A stretch of DNA of 64,000 bases, taken from positions 577,907 through 641,906 of the forward strand of contig NZ_PNXQ01000016.1 of the NCBI RefSeq assembly GCF_005217525.1, written 5' to 3'. The notes beneath the pieces were generated by a model. That model had not been told where the DNA came from. It did not search any database and saw only the letters and a program-made list of their open reading frames with translations. Both the position numbers and the translations under genes were made by a program. Below, piece after piece: positions 41,426 through 48,452 of this stretch (the first letter of the stretch is position 1; every line of letters starts with the position of its first letter). This DNA is from Paenibacillus terrae (GTDB lineage Bacteria; Bacillota; Bacilli; Paenibacillales; Paenibacillaceae).

Positions 41426-42067
41426 ATGATGTATGTAGTGCATACTCCAAAAAACTCTCGACAGATCCAAGCTGCAGAAACACGTCGAAAAATTCTGCAA
41501 CAAGCTAAAATACTGTTTTTTAGGGAAGGCTATCATAAAACTACAGTAAGAAGCATTCATAGAGCATTAAATATGGCAGATGGCATTTTGTATCATTATT
41601 TTCCTGGTGGGAAAAGAGAATTGCTGACTGTTCTTATTCAAGAAGGATTCGAAGAACAACTAGGAAAACTTAATTCATCTAATTCAGATTTAGAATCCCT
41701 TCCATTAAAGGAAGCATTGAAAAAGATATATGAATTGGGAAATGAATTGTTTACGGGGGACATAGAACTCATGCGTATTTTGTTCAGAGAAAGTGATGTG
41801 ATGGAGCTTTCTGAAACCATTCACCTTTCAAATTTACTTCATGAGCGGCTCCAATGGTTCGCAGGCTTTTTGCAGAGAAGATATGAAAAAGGCGAAGTAC
41901 GTAAAATGAACTTTGAAATTGCAGCTAAACAGTTCATGTCTATGAGTATACAGGATATTGTAAGCAAATTGATCAATATTGAATTATTAAGCGACCTTTC
42001 CAGAGATATTACCAGGGAACAAATTATTGATCATATGCTCGATTTATGGAACCCCTTGACATCATAA
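41426..42067 (+). CDS. TetR-family transcriptional regulator
   Basis: 213 residues. Helix-turn-helix: ETRRKILQQAKILFFREGYH, KTTVRSIHRALNMADGILYHYF. The ligand-binding domain is divergent. Ribosome binding site is weak (GAAAGAAG). Flanked by two copies of one operator-like motif, one before itself and one before the lactonase gene, so it probably represses both. Confidence 0.88.
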   Translation: MMYVVHTPKNSRQIQAAETRRKILQQAKILFFREGYHKTTVRSIHRALNMADGILYHYFPGGKRELLTVLIQEGFEEQLGKLNSSNSDLESLPLKEALKKIYELGNELFTGDIELMRILFRESDVMELSETIHLSNLLHERLQWFAGFLQRRYEKGEVRKMNFEIAAKQFMSMSIQDIVSKLINIELLSDLSRDITREQIIDHMLDLWNPLTS

Positions 42068-42096: not shown

Positions 42097-42118
42097 ATTC
42101 AACAACCGGTTAATGAAA
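42097..42118 (+). promoter_or_regulatory. Candidate TetR operator, site 2
   Basis: ATTCAACAACCGGTTAATGA and two more bases; matches site 1 except for the central three bases and the last base. It lies 34 bases before the lactonase start. Confidence 0.65.
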
Positions 42119-42151
42119 TTTAAATTGCTGACGAAAGCTGAGGTTATTATA

Positions 42152-42972
42152 ATGTCTGAAACGATTAAAATTCATGTACTGCACTGCGGCCAAGTTCAAA
42201 CCGACATGGCTCTGCCATTTAACCAAAACACACTCAACCCTATTGCTTTTACAGGGATTTTCAGGTCAAAAAAATATCAGAATAAGCTGCCTGTTTCCGC
42301 TTATTTAATCGAACATCCTAAGGGCCTCGTATTAATTGATACCGGTTGGCACACCGATGTACGTAAAGATCAGCGCAAATACATGGGTAGAATTCACTAC
42401 CAAATTAATAAAGCTATTCTTCCAGAAGGTCAGGCAATTGATGAACAACTTCAGAATTTGGGTGTGAAAATAAAGAATTTAGATTATGTCATTTTAAGCC
42501 ATCTCGATATTGATCATGCGAGCGGTATTAAACTGGTAAGCAAAGCTAAGAATATTTTGACTAGTGACATTGAATGGGAAGCCGCGCCCAAAAGCAAACA
42601 TCGCTACTTACAACATATGTGGGAAGGAGTCCCGATCAGGACCTTCTCTTTTAAACCATCAGAATATGGTCCACAACAATGTCATTTGACTTATTTGGTG
42701 ATGAATCTTTAATTTTTGTGCACACTCCTGGTCATTCCCATGGTTTGTCAGCTACTATTGTAAAAAATAACGGGAAATTTGTTCTCTTAACTAGCGATAC
42801 AGGATATGCAAAAAAGTCTTGGGAGGAAATGATTCTTCAGGGTGTACTTGTTAATAAACAACAGGCCATTGAATCGTTGAAGTGGGTCAAACATATGAGT
42901 AATGAACCTAACTGTATAGAAGTGATCGCTAATCATGACCCAGACATTAAGCCGCATACGATTGTGTTATGA
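42152..42972 (+). pseudogene. Metallo-beta-lactamase-fold lactonase-like hydrolase, frameshifted
   Basis: The first frame carries the metal site SHLDIDHASG (HxDxDH) after LVLIDTGWHTD; it resembles N-acyl homoserine lactonases (AiiA/AttM group). At about 42675-42682 it shifts into TYLVMNL* . The other frame, from ATG 42679, continues SFDLFGDESLIFVHTPGHSH with the third metal His, the bridging Asp in LLTSDTGY, and the last His in VIANHDPD, to a stop at 42972. One added base before TGTCATTTGAC joins them into a normal enzyme of about 273 residues. Start ATG 42152 has GAGG. Regulated, by inference, by the upstream TetR protein. Confidence 0.7.
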
Positions 42973-43128: not shown

Positions 43129-43983
43129 CTACCTTTGCGGCACCCTTTCGAGCAAGCCGCGACCGTACATTTCCCGAAACGGTTGCTCCTCCATATGAAT
43201 GTACCCGATATAACAGCCGCATTCCTTCATACGGCACGGCCGCTTGGCACTTAGTCCTTCAAGGCCATCTCTGTACAAGTGACCAAGTACTCGTCGATCC
43301 TGGTAGCAATGTTTTACACGTCCGTCACCCTGTATGTAAAATACATCCTCTCCAGCGCGACACGCCCGCCCCTGACTACTGTAATCCTGCAAATTCCATT
43401 GGAAATAGGGATCTATAGACGTTAATTCAGCAATCTCGGCATCGGTATAATAATGTGGTCGATCCTTGTAAGCGTTGACCCACAAATAAACATCCTTCGG
43501 AAGCTGTGATCGCAAGGAATGAATAGCGGGAAAAGCCTGTCTCAGTCCCACGGTGCCGACACTGTAGGAAATACCAAGTTCATATAGCTTCATACCTTGA
43601 GATATAAAAGCCGTCTCCTTCGTCTCTCCCGGATGATACGTCGCCCACAGCGCAGCCGTCCTCGGATTCAGTTCCCTGGCCCAATCCAGCTTAGCGGACA
43701 GGTTCGTCTGTACAGCCACTTTATCCACATGCGCCATATGGGAAAACTCAATCATGGTCTTGCGGTACCAGGAATGAATGAGAGCTTCTCCATACGGATT
43801 GAAAAATATGGATAGTCGATGCCCCAAAGTTCCCTGTTCCCGTACCCAATCGGCAAAACGCTCCAGTTGCGCCCGATCCTTGTTCAATGTTTCACGGCTA
43901 TCCACGTTTTTGCTGAACGGGCAGTAAGGGCAAGCATAGTTGCACGAAGTCAACGAGCCACGATAATATAGGGTTGCTCTCAT
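43129..43983 (-). CDS. STM4011-family radical SAM protein
   Basis: 284 residues. Cluster motif CNYACPYC (CxxxCxxC) near residue 14 binds the SAM-cleaving 4Fe-4S cluster. The C-terminus has further cysteines (HCYQDR, then PCRMKECGCYIG), as in enzymes with a second, auxiliary cluster. Family known by position in the STM4011-STM4015 set of Salmonella; reaction unknown. Last gene of the five-gene operon; overlaps the preceding gene by four bases. Confidence 0.8.
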   Translation of the reverse strand: MRATLYYRGSLTSCNYACPYCPFSKNVDSRETLNKDRAQLERFADWVREQGTLGHRLSIFFNPYGEALIHSWYRKTMIEFSHMAHVDKVAVQTNLSAKLDWARELNPRTAALWATYHPGETKETAFISQGMKLYELGISYSVGTVGLRQAFPAIHSLRSQLPKDVYLWVNAYKDRPHYYTDAEIAELTSIDPYFQWNLQDYSSQGRACRAGEDVFYIQGDGRVKHCYQDRRVLGHLYRDGLEGLSAKRPCRMKECGCYIGYIHMEEQPFREMYGRGLLERVPQR

Positions 43984-45404
43984 GCGCCTACGTAGCCTTC
44001 CATCCGCTCCCGTACTGCCGTGGATATCATCCAGTCGCCAATCGCATCGGAATAAGCCATTCCTTCCTCGGTCAGTCGCAGTGTGTCGTCCACAACCACC
44101 GCCATACCAGATTCCAATAACAAGGACATTCCTGCAAAATCATCCGCCAGAGACGCATCGAAGCGCGCGGCGTAAGCAGATAGCTCCAGACCTTCACGAT
44201 GGAGAAGTGCCTTCAGAATAAAACGCCGCTTGCTCTCCTCCACATTTAAAATAAAACCGTAGTCAGCCAGATCATGGCGCTCGGCGGCGACATAATCAGC
44301 AATAATACCGCGCGTTGCGGCTGTACTAACACCGTATCGGCTAGCATAGTGAACATTACGCGTATAGGAGCGCGCACCGCAGCCCAGACCGGCCATGCCT
44401 TCCTCCTGACAGCTGTATGGCAGCAGCTCCTTGCCGAGTGCATCATCATTTTTGGCAAAACGGCGCATGGAATATTGTACATATCCCGCCTGTTTGAGTC
44501 TTTCACGTGCTACTTCGTACAAGCTGAGACGAATATCATGATCCAGCCCGGTATAGCCCGGCTTTAAAATCGTATTTTCCCGAATGTATAATGGGTAAAT
44601 AAAAATTTCACCCGGTGCGTAAGATAATGCCTCTTCCAGAGAGTACAGCCACGTTTCCACCGTTTGACCGGGGAGACCATAGATCAGATCCACGTTCAAC
44701 AGCGGAAAATCGTACTCCACCAGCCGCGCAAGCGCTTCTCGTACAAGCTTGGGCTTCTGAGGGCGGTATATGGCCGCACTCTCCGACTCCACAAAGCTCT
44801 GGATCCCCATGCTGACACGGTCCGTTCGGCGGCGCTTGAGCACCTCCAGCCGATCTTCGGTTACCGTATCCGGCGACGTTTCCACCGAAATGGAAGCATG
44901 TTCCGGGTCTAAACCCATTATATTTTCCGCAATGTCAAACAATCGTTCGACCAAAGGAGCCTCCAGCAAGGTTGGCGTACCGCCGCCGATCGCAAAGCGT
45001 GAAAACGGCCGACCACCCATGATTGGCGCCCATTGTCGGGCTTGTCTTTCAAGCGCATTCACATACTCCTTATGCACATCCAGCCGCTTGTCAGGCAAAG
45101 TGAACAGGTTACAGAATCCACAACGAGCCGCGCAAAACGGAATATGCATATACAAAAAATAGCTCTCCAGCTCCTCCTTCTCCCACAACTCTTGCAGTGA
45201 GAGCGGTGTATCAAACGGCCGATAGGCCGTTTTATGCGGATAAGAGTACAAATAGGAGCGGTAGGGAGCTTCACGGATCGTACGTGCCCATTGGGCAGGG
45301 TTCTCAGGCCATGGAGACCCTGATGCTGAGCCTGCGTCCAGCCCCGCAGAGGGATTGCCTTCTGCTCCCGTTAGAAGCGAGTGATTCAAATTCATGGCTT
45401 TCAT
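43980..45404 (-). CDS. STM4012-family radical SAM protein (HemN-like)
   Basis: 474 residues. HemN-type radical SAM core: YMHIPFCAARCGFCNLF (CxxxCxxC), FAIGGGTPTLLE, SVETSPDT, RVSMGIQSF and DLIYGLPGQT, then the HemN C-terminal domain. Not coproporphyrinogen dehydrogenase by context; HemN relatives include methyltransferases and cyclopropanases. Operon member, 70 bases after the hydrolase gene. Confidence 0.82.
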   Translation of the reverse strand: MKAMNLNHSLLTGAEGNPSAGLDAGSASGSPWPENPAQWARTIREAPYRSYLYSYPHKTAYRPFDTPLSLQELWEKEELESYFLYMHIPFCAARCGFCNLFTLPDKRLDVHKEYVNALERQARQWAPIMGGRPFSRFAIGGGTPTLLEAPLVERLFDIAENIMGLDPEHASISVETSPDTVTEDRLEVLKRRRTDRVSMGIQSFVESESAAIYRPQKPKLVREALARLVEYDFPLLNVDLIYGLPGQTVETWLYSLEEALSYAPGEIFIYPLYIRENTILKPGYTGLDHDIRLSLYEVARERLKQAGYVQYSMRRFAKNDDALGKELLPYSCQEEGMAGLGCGARSYTRNVHYASRYGVSTAATRGIIADYVAAERHDLADYGFILNVEESKRRFILKALLHREGLELSAYAARFDASLADDFAGMSLLLESGMAVVVDDTLRLTEEGMAYSDAIGDWMISTAVRERMEGYVGA

Positions 45405-45473
45405 TTCTGCTCCCTCCTCGCGCTGGATTGATTTCTTTACATTTTACCAGTGCAATCTAAAATTTCTTGTACC

Positions 45474-46256
45474 TTACAACACAAATTCGCGGTAAGGCAC
45501 ATTCCATACTACCTCATGAGCTAGACGATGCCCTTCGTAGCCGTCTTCCCCATAAGCCGTACCATGATCGGAAAAGGCCATGCAAAACGTCTTTCCCCGT
45601 TCTCGTAAAGCATCAAACAAACGCCCAAGCTGCCCATCCACATAACGCAAGGCTACACGTTGGGACTCCACCGAATCCTTAGCTGAGCACTCCAGAAAAT
45701 AGTGATTAGGGCCATGAATAGCTGATACATTCAGGAACAAAAACAGCCGCTGCGCCGGGTCCGCCTTCTCCAGCAGCTTAAGGGCATGATTCACCTGATG
45801 CTCGGTTGAACGGGGATTCGTAACGCCGAAGGTCATACGCCAGTAGCTTTCCTGAAAATACCCCGGCAGCACCTTGGCAAGCTTGTTTTTTTTCGTAAAA
45901 AAAATAACGCCGCCGATGCAGATTGTTCGATACCCCTCACCCGCCAGCCCGGATACAATATCCGGTGCATCAAACAGCCACGTATGCGGATGCGTCCGCA
46001 GTCCCGTATCCTTTGTATGAAACAGCCGTATGTGGGAGGCCTTATCCGTATTAGCCGGTGTAGGCAAAAATCCGCCAAAAAACGCATGATGTGCAGCATA
46101 GGTAAAGCTGCCCGGCGTATGGCGTTTTTCCCATGGTCCAGACTCGCATAGATTCGGACAGTTCTCCTCCTCCAGCTTGGCTACATCGTAACGCAGCGTG
46201 TCGAGCGTAATCATGACAATATCATGAGAACCGACAATCTGATTCATATCGGTCAT
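45474..46256 (-). CDS. STM4013/SEN3800-family hydrolase (AlkP/sulfatase fold)
   Basis: About 260 residues. The metal-binding start DIVMITLDTLRYDVA has the Asp and the Thr that could act as nucleophile, and the end has AFSDHGTAYGEDGYEGHRLA, the second metal site of alkaline phosphatase/sulfatase-fold enzymes. Shorter than true sulfatases (about 450). ATG at 46256 overlaps the stop of the ATP-grasp gene (ATGA). Substrate unknown. Confidence 0.8.
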   Translation of the reverse strand: MTDMNQIVGSHDIVMITLDTLRYDVAKLEEENCPNLCESGPWEKRHTPGSFTYAAHHAFFGGFLPTPANTDKASHIRLFHTKDTGLRTHPHTWLFDAPDIVSGLAGEGYRTICIGGVIFFTKKNKLAKVLPGYFQESYWRMTFGVTNPRSTEHQVNHALKLLEKADPAQRLFLFLNVSAIHGPNHYFLECSAKDSVESQRVALRYVDGQLGRLFDALRERGKTFCMAFSDHGTAYGEDGYEGHRLAHEVVWNVPYREFVL

Positions 46257-47590
46257 AACGAGTCTTTCCTTTCCAAAGTTGCAGTCCCATTGGCGAGATG
46301 CAGCATTTCCCATTCATATGGATTCCATCCCTGATGCTTTACACGATATAGCAGGTCACCGAACGGATTAACATCCAGCACGTATGGACGACCGCCATGC
46401 GCCGGAACCAGCACATCCAGCCCAGCGACCATAGAGGCTGGAAATGCGCTCATCGCGGCTTCCGCAGTCTGCTGCACCGATTCTACCGTATCCTGCGGCA
46501 ACCCAGCGCCCTCCAGCAAGAGCCGTTCATTGCGCAAATGCAGATTCGTAATCGGACTCCGACTCAAACGCAAAACGGCATGACAAGCCTCTGCTCCACA
46601 AACGAGCTGGCGTACATCGTAAACACGTCCGTTCAGACTCGCTTTAGGTATCCAGCGCTCCACATGCACCCCTTCCGAGCATAGCCAGCCCAGGGTAGCA
46701 TGAATGTCCTGCTTGTCCGTATAACGGCGCAAGCGTCCGGCATTGTAATACACGCGCTGTCCGTGTACGATTTCCGTTCCGATGGTGGTTACCGCCAGTT
46801 CTGCCCGTGTCCGCGGATGCACCTGATAGGCTATTACACCCGAAGCACCGGACCCGCAAAATATTTTCACAAACAGGCGGTAAACCCCGCTCTCCTTCAT
46901 CGCTGCGTGCAGATCAGCAACATCACGAAAGGTACCGTCTAATGGTGCAAGCACAGGCGGAACCCTTATGCCCGCCTTGTCCAATACGGTGCTGCAACGC
47001 CGTTTGTCGAACATCACAGCCACTTCCGTCGGATCATTCATCCAGCGCGACGAGGGCCACAGCTGGGCCGCTTCTTGCCGCAGCCATGCCAGCAGACGGC
47101 AATATCCCCGGAACCATTGTGCCGGGTGCCAAATGCGACCGTGCTGCTCCAGTAGGCCTCGTGCTTCTGCCGCCAATATGCCTGGGCCATATGCTAATTC
47201 CGCACACGGCAACAAAGAATCGTCTCCCTCCGCATCCGGGGCTCCCAAAGCAATCAGTTCACGCTCTATCTCAAAGTTTTCGCCTGGTGCATCCAGACGA
47301 AGCAGCGGACTAATGTCCGCCGCCCCCGTCTTTAACTGACAGATGCTCTCTTGCATATATACACTAGCATTTACACTGTCTGACGCAGACTGTATAGCTA
47401 TTCGGGCCATCAGTTCACCCAAGCTTTGTTTTTCACGGATGGCTTCCAGCACATTTTTATAGGAAATCTCAACAGCTGGCGGCAGCTTCAATCTGCTTCG
47501 CGCCTCTTGTAGTCCTGTGGTCCGCCGATTCCCCGAATTGCCAAACAAAATAAACCGCTCGTTGACATTTCTGTCTGATATCCCAACCAT
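46253..47590 (-). CDS. STM4014-family protein, ATP-grasp-like
   Basis: 445 residues. After about 190 residues without clear signature the chain reads VMFDKRRCSTVLDKAGIRVP, RLFVKIFCGSGASGVIAYQV and YVLDVNPFGDLLY, the lid lysine, glycine-rich loop and metal-binding D-x-N of an ATP-grasp ligase. ATP-grasp enzymes join carboxylates to amines or thiols, often on peptides. Second gene of the operon, 20 bases after the LRR gene; GAGGCGG before the ATG. Confidence 0.72.
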   Translation of the reverse strand: MVGISDRNVNERFILFGNSGNRRTTGLQEARSRLKLPPAVEISYKNVLEAIREKQSLGELMARIAIQSASDSVNASVYMQESICQLKTGAADISPLLRLDAPGENFEIERELIALGAPDAEGDDSLLPCAELAYGPGILAAEARGLLEQHGRIWHPAQWFRGYCRLLAWLRQEAAQLWPSSRWMNDPTEVAVMFDKRRCSTVLDKAGIRVPPVLAPLDGTFRDVADLHAAMKESGVYRLFVKIFCGSGASGVIAYQVHPRTRAELAVTTIGTEIVHGQRVYYNAGRLRRYTDKQDIHATLGWLCSEGVHVERWIPKASLNGRVYDVRQLVCGAEACHAVLRLSRSPITNLHLRNERLLLEGAGLPQDTVESVQQTAEAAMSAFPASMVAGLDVLVPAHGGRPYVLDVNPFGDLLYRVKHQGWNPYEWEMLHLANGTATLERKDSL

Positions 47591-47609
47591 AAAAGCCGCC
47601 TCACCTCAC

Positions 47610-48452
47610 TTACTCAGTCAACGATGGATAGCGCCAATCATCTTCCTCGTCCGCTTGCTGCTGATCTTCCACATTCACAGACAGTCCTGTGCTTTTCCAA
47701 CGTCTCATCATTTCATCAGACATATAGTGATAGCTCAAATCCAGATGCTTCAGCCCTTTGATGCTTTCGCTAGCCAGTAGTGCCTCTGCCCCTTTATCGG
47801 ACAACGTGCCTTGAGACAGATCAAGTACCTCCAGTTGTCCAATCGCAGTTGCGTTTGCCGCAGCAATCGCAATTTCATCCTGTATTTCACTATCCTTCAG
47901 CCCCAAATAGGTCAGCTTGGGAAAAAGATTGTCGTTCAGGAACGGTAATACGTCCTCCAGACCACCGTCAAAACCGTATTGATCCACGCCCAAGTACAGC
48001 TCCAGCTTACGCAGCTCTGGCAGCTCGGCATTACGAATCTCCTGAAGAACACTCGCTGGCAAACCTCCGCAAATAATAACCAATTCCTGAAGGTGGCTAT
48101 GCCGCAATGGTTCCAGGCTCAGGTCCTGACTTCCTTTAACATAAAAGGATTCCAATGCTGGAAACGCCTCCAACAGCGGAGACAGATTCGTCTGATTAAT
48201 CCACGAAACCTCACACTCGTCATATTCCATATCCCCGATAAACAGCTTACGCAGCTTCGGAAATTGATCTTTGTGCTTTACCAGCACCGGAATAAAATCC
48301 TCCGGCGATTGTTCATAGGCTCCGCCCCAATCTCCAATAATCAAATCCGTTATTTCTGCGCTCTCTGGCTTGACTGCCAGTTCTTCAATAAAATTGGCCA
48401 TCGTTTGACCCTTCTCATAAGCTTCATAATCCACAACCAGCTTTACTTCCAT
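47610..48452 (-). CDS. STM4015-family leucine-rich-repeat protein
   Basis: 280 residues. The N-terminal 100 residues look like a SMI1/WGR-neighbour-type acidic domain (DLIIGDWGGAYEQSPEDFIP). Then leucine-rich repeats: PELRKLELYLG, FPKLTYLGLKDSEIQ, GQLEVLDLSQGTLSDKGAEA, KGLKHLDLSYHYMSD. LRRs bind proteins, so this may present a substrate to the enzymes downstream. ATG at 48452 has GGAGG. First gene of the operon. Confidence 0.75.
   Translation of the reverse strand: MEVKLVVDYEAYEKGQTMANFIEELAVKPESAEITDLIIGDWGGAYEQSPEDFIPVLVKHKDQFPKLRKLFIGDMEYDECEVSWINQTNLSPLLEAFPALESFYVKGSQDLSLEPLRHSHLQELVIICGGLPASVLQEIRNAELPELRKLELYLGVDQYGFDGGLEDVLPFLNDNLFPKLTYLGLKDSEIQDEIAIAAANATAIGQLEVLDLSQGTLSDKGAEALLASESIKGLKHLDLSYHYMSDEMMRRWKSTGLSVNVEDQQQADEEDDWRYPSLTE

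Follow-up and report, generated by a model that had tools for sequence, protein, structure and literature searches.

What do the five genes packed together at positions 43129-48452 of the window accomplish? The window is the whole 64,000-nucleotide stretch of Paenibacillus contig NZ_PNXQ01000016.1 analyzed here (genome size 5.26 Mb), and this segment of its minus strand holds a complete STM4015-STM4014-STM4013-STM4012-STM4011 operon, with each of the five families far over its NCBIfam cut-off by hmmscan. The initial annotation had recognized the operon and read it as a dedicated biosynthetic or modification pathway in which a leucine-rich repeat (LRR) protein is substrate or scaffold, an interpretation that our analysis partly supports. 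We found that the LRR protein STM4015 ends in a near-invariant glutamate and is the family whose copies multiply within genomes. We propose, with confidence a little short of even, that STM4015 serves as carrier or substrate: the ATP-grasp protein STM4014 would load its C-terminal Glu, and the two radical S-adenosylmethionine (SAM) enzymes of the operon would modify the protein.

All five open reading frames (ORFs) lie on the minus strand. The LRR protein STM4015 (47610..48452; 280 residues; NF038076, 366.4 bits, cut-off 275), our proposed carrier or substrate, is separated by a gap of 19 nt from STM4014 (46253..47590; 445 residues; NF038074, 454.6 bits, cut-off 175), the proposed ligase acting on its C-terminus. 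The STM4013/SEN3800 family hydrolase, of alkaline-phosphatase (AlkP) fold (45474..46256; NF038075, 404.7 bits, cut-off 250), overlaps the STM4014 stop by 4 nt if it begins at the internal ATG at 46256, where we set its start. After a gap of 69 nt follows the HemN-like radical SAM protein STM4012 (43980..45404; 474 residues; NF006067, 585.4 bits, cut-off 380), which overlaps by 4 nt the second radical SAM protein, STM4011 (43129..43983; 284 residues; NF038073, 399.7 bits, cut-off 200). Three of the four junctions thus overlap or lie within about 20 nt, as first noted. A scan for promoters and terminators gave matches no more numerous than in shuffled sequences.

The five families belong together wherever their co-occurrence was tested. 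Among 246 Actinomycetes genomes, over-cut-off members were found in 31 for STM4011, 31 for STM4012, 30 for STM4013, 30 for STM4014 and 31 for STM4015, and the genome sets coincide except in G423, where the cassette is split over contigs, with STM4015 and STM4012/STM4011 on separate contigs and STM4013 and STM4014 not found. The set is therefore obligate in this sample, co-occurring strictly rather than scattered singly as the refuting condition named in the initial annotation would have it, and the idea of a dedicated pathway gained support from families that share the same 31 genomes bar one fragmented assembly. Outside the cassette genomes, matches were weak and below cut-off (22-24 bits for STM4015 in both G215 and G360, and no more than about 30 bits for many ATP-grasp proteins). 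STM4013 was the sole family seen over cut-off outside the set, as a second copy in G272 and as a gene of Streptomyces albidoflavus. The order at the latter locus is radical SAM, thymidylate kinase, STM4013, NUDIX (L011:6893-10342), and by eye it is similar in G272 (L240:447-3838). In the window's phylum, STM4013 exceeded its cut-off in 5 of 199 sampled genomes, the window genome included.

A scan for STM4011 over one genome per species (E <= 1e-3) returned at least 554 relatives. The best 80 of these loci all showed the same gene order and strand, and in one of them (L049) the STM4015 gene and the STM4013 gene are each broken into two ORFs. This sample is narrow because nearly all of it is Paenibacillaceae (one locus is labelled Bacillus sp.), plus one Nocardia; the nearest named relative among the matches listed was Paenibacillus terrae, with 96% identity in STM4011. 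The set was also present in Methylobacterium, Deinococcus, Streptomyces, Salmonella, Bacteroides (incomplete) and a member of another family in the window's phylum (G151), and the phyla with the set are Bacillota, Actinomycetota, Deinococcota, Pseudomonadota and Bacteroidota. On the Bacteroides finegoldii plasmid (L232), a deletion reduces STM4013 and STM4012 to their outer ends, and STM4015, STM4014 and a fused STM4011 are still read through. The record labelled as a Salmonella plasmid also carries glnA, glnL, glnG and typA, so the cassette segment looks chromosomal. Megablast with the Salmonella cassette gave no Escherichia coli homologs, more distant ones not being sought. A phage origin was rejected: STM4011 had just two matches in a phage collection, one to an unverified contig of short length and the other to a draft contig of Salmonella. 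The earlier suggestion that the set moves between phyla agrees with its five-phylum presence, patchiness and plasmid carriage, a distribution that such transfer could produce. No function for the set was found in print, in keeping with the initial annotation, by a literature search that most subscription papers and preprints lay outside; within the same reach, no paper joined radical SAM, ATP-grasp, leucine-rich repeat and precursor peptide, and the gene names appeared singly, as table entries, in the accessible parts of the papers.

The alignment of STM4015 proteins revealed an LRR body, an acidic linker variable in length and sequence, and a short conserved end. By sequence comparison, the linker of the window protein comprises residues 262-272 (EDQQQADEEDD; 47637..47669), and the tail WRYPSLTE comprises residues 273-280 (47613..47636), with Glu280 as the proposed attachment site. 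Other tails read RYVAVSE, YYPEVTE, WRYVALGE, YRSIAVSE, YMNAMYTE, YPMITE and RYCSVAE. Of 166 distinct STM4015 ORFs from six phyla (242 loci), among which one protein figures twice because a fragment of it is also counted, 163 terminate in Glu, and the three remaining ends belong to broken frames. In L049 a frame break splits the gene and the second piece still ends in RYPSLTE, L200 has an internal stop, and in L212 the last 20 residues diverge from relatives and the ORF stops 7 bases short of the contig end. When 148 distinct copies were compared, every one of the 145 that end in Glu had Thr, Ser, Gly or Ala at position -2, and 141 of them had Tyr or Phe at position -6. As a control from the same loci, Glu closed 147 of 150 STM4015 proteins vs 22-52% for the commonest last residue of the four enzymes (Arg in 43/121 STM4011, Arg in 28/120 STM4012, Leu in 63/121 STM4013 and Ala in 26/119 STM4014); these counts, and those of conserved residues and motifs, leave out L182, L189, L204, L143 and short search loci.

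The pattern RYPx[LIV]TE-stop matched a single site in the window's own genome, namely this STM4015 gene. A C-terminal tag common to other proteins was considered and rejected, as the pattern gave 19 matches in 39 relatives, 18 of them STM4015; the nineteenth (L213) lies within no ORF of at least 60 residues ending in the motif. Six genus-level relatives gave zero matches and may either lack the gene or carry a different tail.

The copy number of STM4015 departs from that of its partners. The 31 Actinomycetes genomes with the set hold 54 over-cut-off copies of STM4015, and the other 215 hold none, whereas STM4011, STM4012 and STM4014 each have one over-cut-off copy per genome that has them. Up to five STM4015 copies stand in tandem (G254), and some lie on a different contig or at a distance of about 100 kb. 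Seven intact remote copies (L193-L198, and L143 on a Streptomyces plasmid) end in Glu, and an eighth (L200) is broken. Between paralogs of one genome, the median identity was 0.64 for the body and 0.83 for the last six residues, and of 31 pairs, 28 were more alike in the tail than in the body; one genome supplied 10 of the pairs, and G270 contributes none, L204 having been left out. One enzyme set with several dependent partners would resemble a maturase with its substrates. The initial annotation had left STM4015 as either substrate or scaffold; the C-terminal Glu tail, which that annotation had missed, sharpens the substrate part to a carrier or substrate, and the scaffold remains a rival, weighed below.

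The STM4015 fold was modelled with a predicted local distance difference test (pLDDT) of 93.6, and a homolog has a solved structure, 2RA8 (35% identity, Z 34.4, root-mean-square deviation (rmsd) 1.6 over 271 residues). This is Bacteroides fragilis Q64V53, a structural genomics entry deposited as an uncharacterised protein, whose tail YPMITE is followed by 8 more chain residues that are probably a tag. LRR models are the sole domain matches of STM4015, with no enzyme domain matched. Lineage variants exist: the Bacteroides finegoldii relative has an N-terminal WGR domain, and an STM4015-like protein on a plasmid of the cyanobacterium Calothrix (L233:2014-3288) carries an extra N-terminal region and keeps the tail RYCSVAE.

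For STM4014, a model predicted from 54 sequences (pLDDT 89.8) has an ATP-grasp fold. A Foldseek search with it placed LysX 3vpd first and PsnB third, with RimK and LysX/ArgX structures among the best matches. The top structural matches were ArgX 3vpb, a co-crystal with LysW (Z 22.2, rmsd 2.9 over 269), RimK (Z 22.0) and LysX 3vpd (Z 21.7, rmsd 3.0 over 273). Residues K196, K242, E311, D392 and N408 are at least 98% conserved in 119 sequences. The predicted fold thus suits the joining ligase named in the initial annotation, and the ligase activity itself stays putative. The analogy with LysW had been proposed before this fold search. As described in PMC10433800, PMC9303977 and PMC4490483, the carrier LysW ends in a Glu to whose gamma-carboxyl ArgX and LysX attach an amine (for LysX, PMC10433800 and PMC9303977), and the C-terminal EDWGE motif of LysW is recognized by the GSWGR motif of LysX/ArgX (PMC10433800).

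STM4013 matches the Pfam models Sulfatase and Phosphodiest, and D38, D226, D249, H250 and H262 are at least 98% conserved. Formylglycine sulfatases carry a Cys or Ser nucleophile in the signature C/S-x-P/A-x-R. Of 121 STM4013 sequences, 119 have Thr at the nucleophile position (2 were unmatched by the pattern; the window codon lies at about 46101-46103), and the signature occurs anywhere in 4 of 121. A formylglycine sulfatase was therefore rejected because Thr stands at the nucleophile position. The earlier label of metal hydrolase holds in its conserved active-site residues and fails in the sulfatase sense, and the likely Thr nucleophile together with AlkP-fold residues would point to phosphate rather than sulfate ester chemistry. 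STM4012 has the Pfam domains Radical_SAM and HemN_C and matches HemN (1olt) and the methyltransferase NocN (9p2u) in sequence; it falls below the HemN cut-off of TIGR00538 (141.5 vs 324.95 bits). HemN decarboxylates a propionate, and one may speculate that the Glu side chain resembles this substrate. STM4011 has a CxxxCxxC motif and, as the initial annotation had noticed, extra C-terminal cysteines. These are five (C208, C226, C250, C255 and C257), invariant in 9 aligned proteins and at least 98% conserved in 121 sequences. Over its C-terminal part, STM4011 resembles the radical SAM peptide maturase SkfB (6efn; E 5e-4), and it lies below the Pfam cut-off for both Radical_SAM and SPASM (SPASM 17.0 vs 21.5 bits).

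Certain lineages add further genes. Of 77 Paenibacillaceae loci with downstream sequence of 1,200 bases or more, 30 carry an adenylyl-sulfate kinase (APS-kinase)-like gene 3' of STM4011 and in the same orientation (e.g. L069:9870-10427). With ORF starts placed mechanically, it overlaps the STM4011 stop in several loci; all four scanned of the 30 passed the apsK cut-off. The gene is not in the window, and it hints at phosphoryl or nucleotide chemistry. In Bacteroides finegoldii and G151, STM4011 forms one protein with a haloacid dehalogenase (HAD) phosphatase (Hydrolase_3); in Salmonella this phosphatase is a separate gene overlapping STM4011, and in two actinomycete loci it stands 3' of STM4011 (L232:9313-10893, L020:7345-8793, L012:11910-12644, L208:8126-8989 and L209:3261-4067). 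One Deinococcus has it near the cassette. DUF6745 genes and a partner of about 100 residues of YRQGDVLI type flank the set in Deinococcus, Methylobacterium and Streptomyces plasmids; DUF6745 flanks the cassette at L009, L010, L015, L016, L237 and L238 and in 17 Actinomycetes genomes. In the 246 genomes, all 17 high-scoring DUF6745 genes (>300 bits) are within about 1.6 kb of a cassette gene, 14 of 31 cassette genomes have no high-scoring copy, and lower-scoring ones occur elsewhere too, including genomes without the cassette. DUF6745 was considered as a second candidate substrate bearing the STM4015 tail; its C-terminus is also conserved, as Y-x-P and mostly Thr-ended, but is unlike that tail. 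A literature search of limited reach found no match for the family. Apart from the APS-kinase-like, HAD and DUF6745 helpers, no neighbour cluster common to the main lineages was seen when ORFs of at least 50 residues were clustered without systematic annotation.

A non-exhaustive search of short ORFs recognized no precursor peptide, as the initial annotation had reported for the window, and the STM4015 tail may itself play that part. A 64-residue ORF lies on the same strand 26 nt upstream of STM4015 in six Paenibacillus loci (L031:4454-4648 (+) and five others) and may be a gene or chance; an 85-residue ORF lies 23 nt upstream on the opposite strand in five. In five Paenibacillus loci a gene that by eye is M32 carboxypeptidase-like stands at least 2.5 kb downstream (L021:14342-15871 and four others), which is probably ordinary synteny. 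Beside the operon, at 42113-42972 (+) of the window, a metallo-beta-lactamase-fold gene is apparently broken into two ORFs that overlap and differ in reading frame (Lactamase_B in the first, no match in the second), and it adjoins a TetR regulator at 41426-42067.

In the mechanism we propose, the LRR body of STM4015 would serve as docking platform, and the acidic linker would present the tail, with the terminal Glu as the reactive handle. STM4014, as a putative ATP-grasp ligase of the LysX/RimK kind, would activate the alpha or gamma carboxylate of this Glu and join an amine-bearing group to it. STM4011, whose extra cysteines may hold auxiliary Fe-S clusters as in peptide-modifying radical SAM enzymes, and the HemN-like STM4012 could each carry out radical chemistry on the attached group, the tail or both. 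STM4013 and the helpers, a HAD phosphatase or APS-kinase-like enzyme, might contribute a phosphorylated or nucleotide-linked step, and the product would be either released or retained as a modification of STM4015.

Several observations weigh against this mechanism. The Z lead of the LysX/RimK group is small, with glutathione synthetase at 21.0, PPIP5K/Asp1 kinases at 20-20.6 and D-Ala ligases at up to 19.7, so that ranking alone does not fix the STM4014 substrate. The profile match of STM4014 to LysX (1uc8, 3vpd) was non-significant (E 0.15), with no RimK entry as such; the docking motif GSWGR occurs in 1 of 119 STM4014 sequences and EDWGE ends none of 150 STM4015 tails. STM4014 and STM4015 are, by sequence, not members of the LysX and LysW families. 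The tail was modelled as coil with pLDDT of about 79-85, and is thus not clearly floppy, and the alignment with 2RA8 extends to the last residue of the STM4015 model; the end may have a structural or docking role. The three paralog pairs with a tail less alike than the body all pair a remote with an operon copy, the two tails being of different type and all still Glu-ended. No cassette enzymes occur within 11 kb of the Calothrix plasmid STM4015, the stretch that was read, and no releasing peptidase was identified among the clustered, not systematically annotated neighbours.

The leading rival is a scaffold or regulator: STM4015 would hold the four enzymes, its tail would be a docking peptide or LRR cap, and STM4014 would join free small molecules. 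LRR proteins are generally binding platforms, the tail is modelled with fair confidence and covered by the alignment to a crystal structure, and small-molecule ATP-grasp ligases come within about 1-3 Z of the top match. A cap, however, needs no chain stop at Glu, yet Glu comes last almost without exception, and a scaffold is expected to keep in step with its enzymes, whereas STM4015 is the one member amplified, up to five-fold, and some of its copies lie far from the operon. We consider this rival unlikely, though it deserves serious attention. The tail could instead be a ribosomal precursor, with STM4015 as a giant leader and its last eight residues as a core that STM4014, in a graspetide-like manner, and the radical enzymes cross-link through Tyr/Phe at -6, Ser/Thr at -2 or -4 and Glu before it is cut off. 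The place of PsnB among the best Foldseek matches, the resemblance of the STM4011 C-terminal part to the maturase SkfB and the presence, in every one of 145 tails, of His or an aromatic residue between positions -8 and -6 would all suit such a precursor. It is nevertheless clearly improbable to us, as body and linker vary and the tail is mostly kept, the reverse of usual leader and core behaviour, and no peptidase was identified. Four of the 145 tails have Ser or Asn at position -6, and -2 can be Gly or Ala; because these positions tolerate substitutions, Glu alone appears indispensable in the tail.

Carrier loading must also be set against a permanent change, in which the cassette would install a cofactor or modification on an STM4015 that is itself the working protein, a sensor, adaptor or enzyme with lineage fusions such as the Bacteroides WGR domain. 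The diversified, sometimes remote STM4015 copies with their occasional extra N-terminal parts are consistent with this, as is the absence, beyond the named helpers, of a neighbour cluster seen common to the main lineages. An LRR body that diverges between paralogs and matches no enzyme domain argues the other way, and we regard this as the least probable of the readings considered. Our preferred reading remains the carrier or substrate loaded at its C-terminal Glu.

More tentatively, the cassette may represent an unrecognised class of protein-tethered radical biosynthesis built on a reusable LRR carrier, or a final modified protein, through its C-terminal Glu. Such a class would combine LysX/RimK-like loading, two radical SAM tailors and phosphoryl or nucleotide chemistry (AlkP-fold hydrolase, HAD and APS-kinase-like enzymes) in at least five phyla, including Salmonella and Bacteroides. 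The set is common, with its at least 554 STM4011 relatives at one genome per species, and the STM4015 C-terminal Glu makes a long-ignored operon testable. If the proposal is true, two radical SAM families and the solved structure 2RA8 would also gain a role.

All five window genes are members, over cut-off and in standard order within one operon, of the STM4011-STM4015 NCBIfam families, whose names say nothing about function; the type 'hypoth_equivalog' applies to STM4013, STM4014 and STM4015. New here, relative to those families, are the STM4015 tail, the copy-number pattern and the fold evidence. Among characterized systems, graspetide synthesis by PsnB shares the ATP-grasp ligase fold and a gene-encoded partner; the cassette differs in its two radical SAM enzymes and in that no short precursor was recognized in a search that was not exhaustive. 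RimK, which acts on the C-terminus of ribosomal protein S6, shares the ATP-grasp fold and tied for top structural match, whereas the cassette has a dedicated LRR partner and radical SAM enzymes. The likeness to LysW lies in a carrier whose C-terminal Glu follows a small residue (Glu in 163 of 166 STM4015) and in a partner ATP-grasp ligase of similar fold. STM4015 is, in contrast, a 280-residue LRR protein and LysW a small zinc protein, and the motif pair of the LysW system is found in 0/150 STM4015 tails (EDWGE) and 1/119 STM4014 (GSWGR). The LysW pathway includes a kinase, a reductase and an aminotransferase, where the cassette has two radical SAM enzymes and an AlkP-fold hydrolase. Pearlins such as 3-thiaglutamate are assembled at the C-terminal end of a carrier peptide that is itself gene-encoded, and one case involves tailoring by a radical SAM enzyme (PMC9303977). 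The cassette, as proposed here, shares that logic; it differs in its large folded carrier and in using ATP-grasp, with no PEARL/LanB-like or DUF692 model among the Pfam matches of the five proteins. If this proves true, an LRR carrier would join the short list of protein-tethered pathways.

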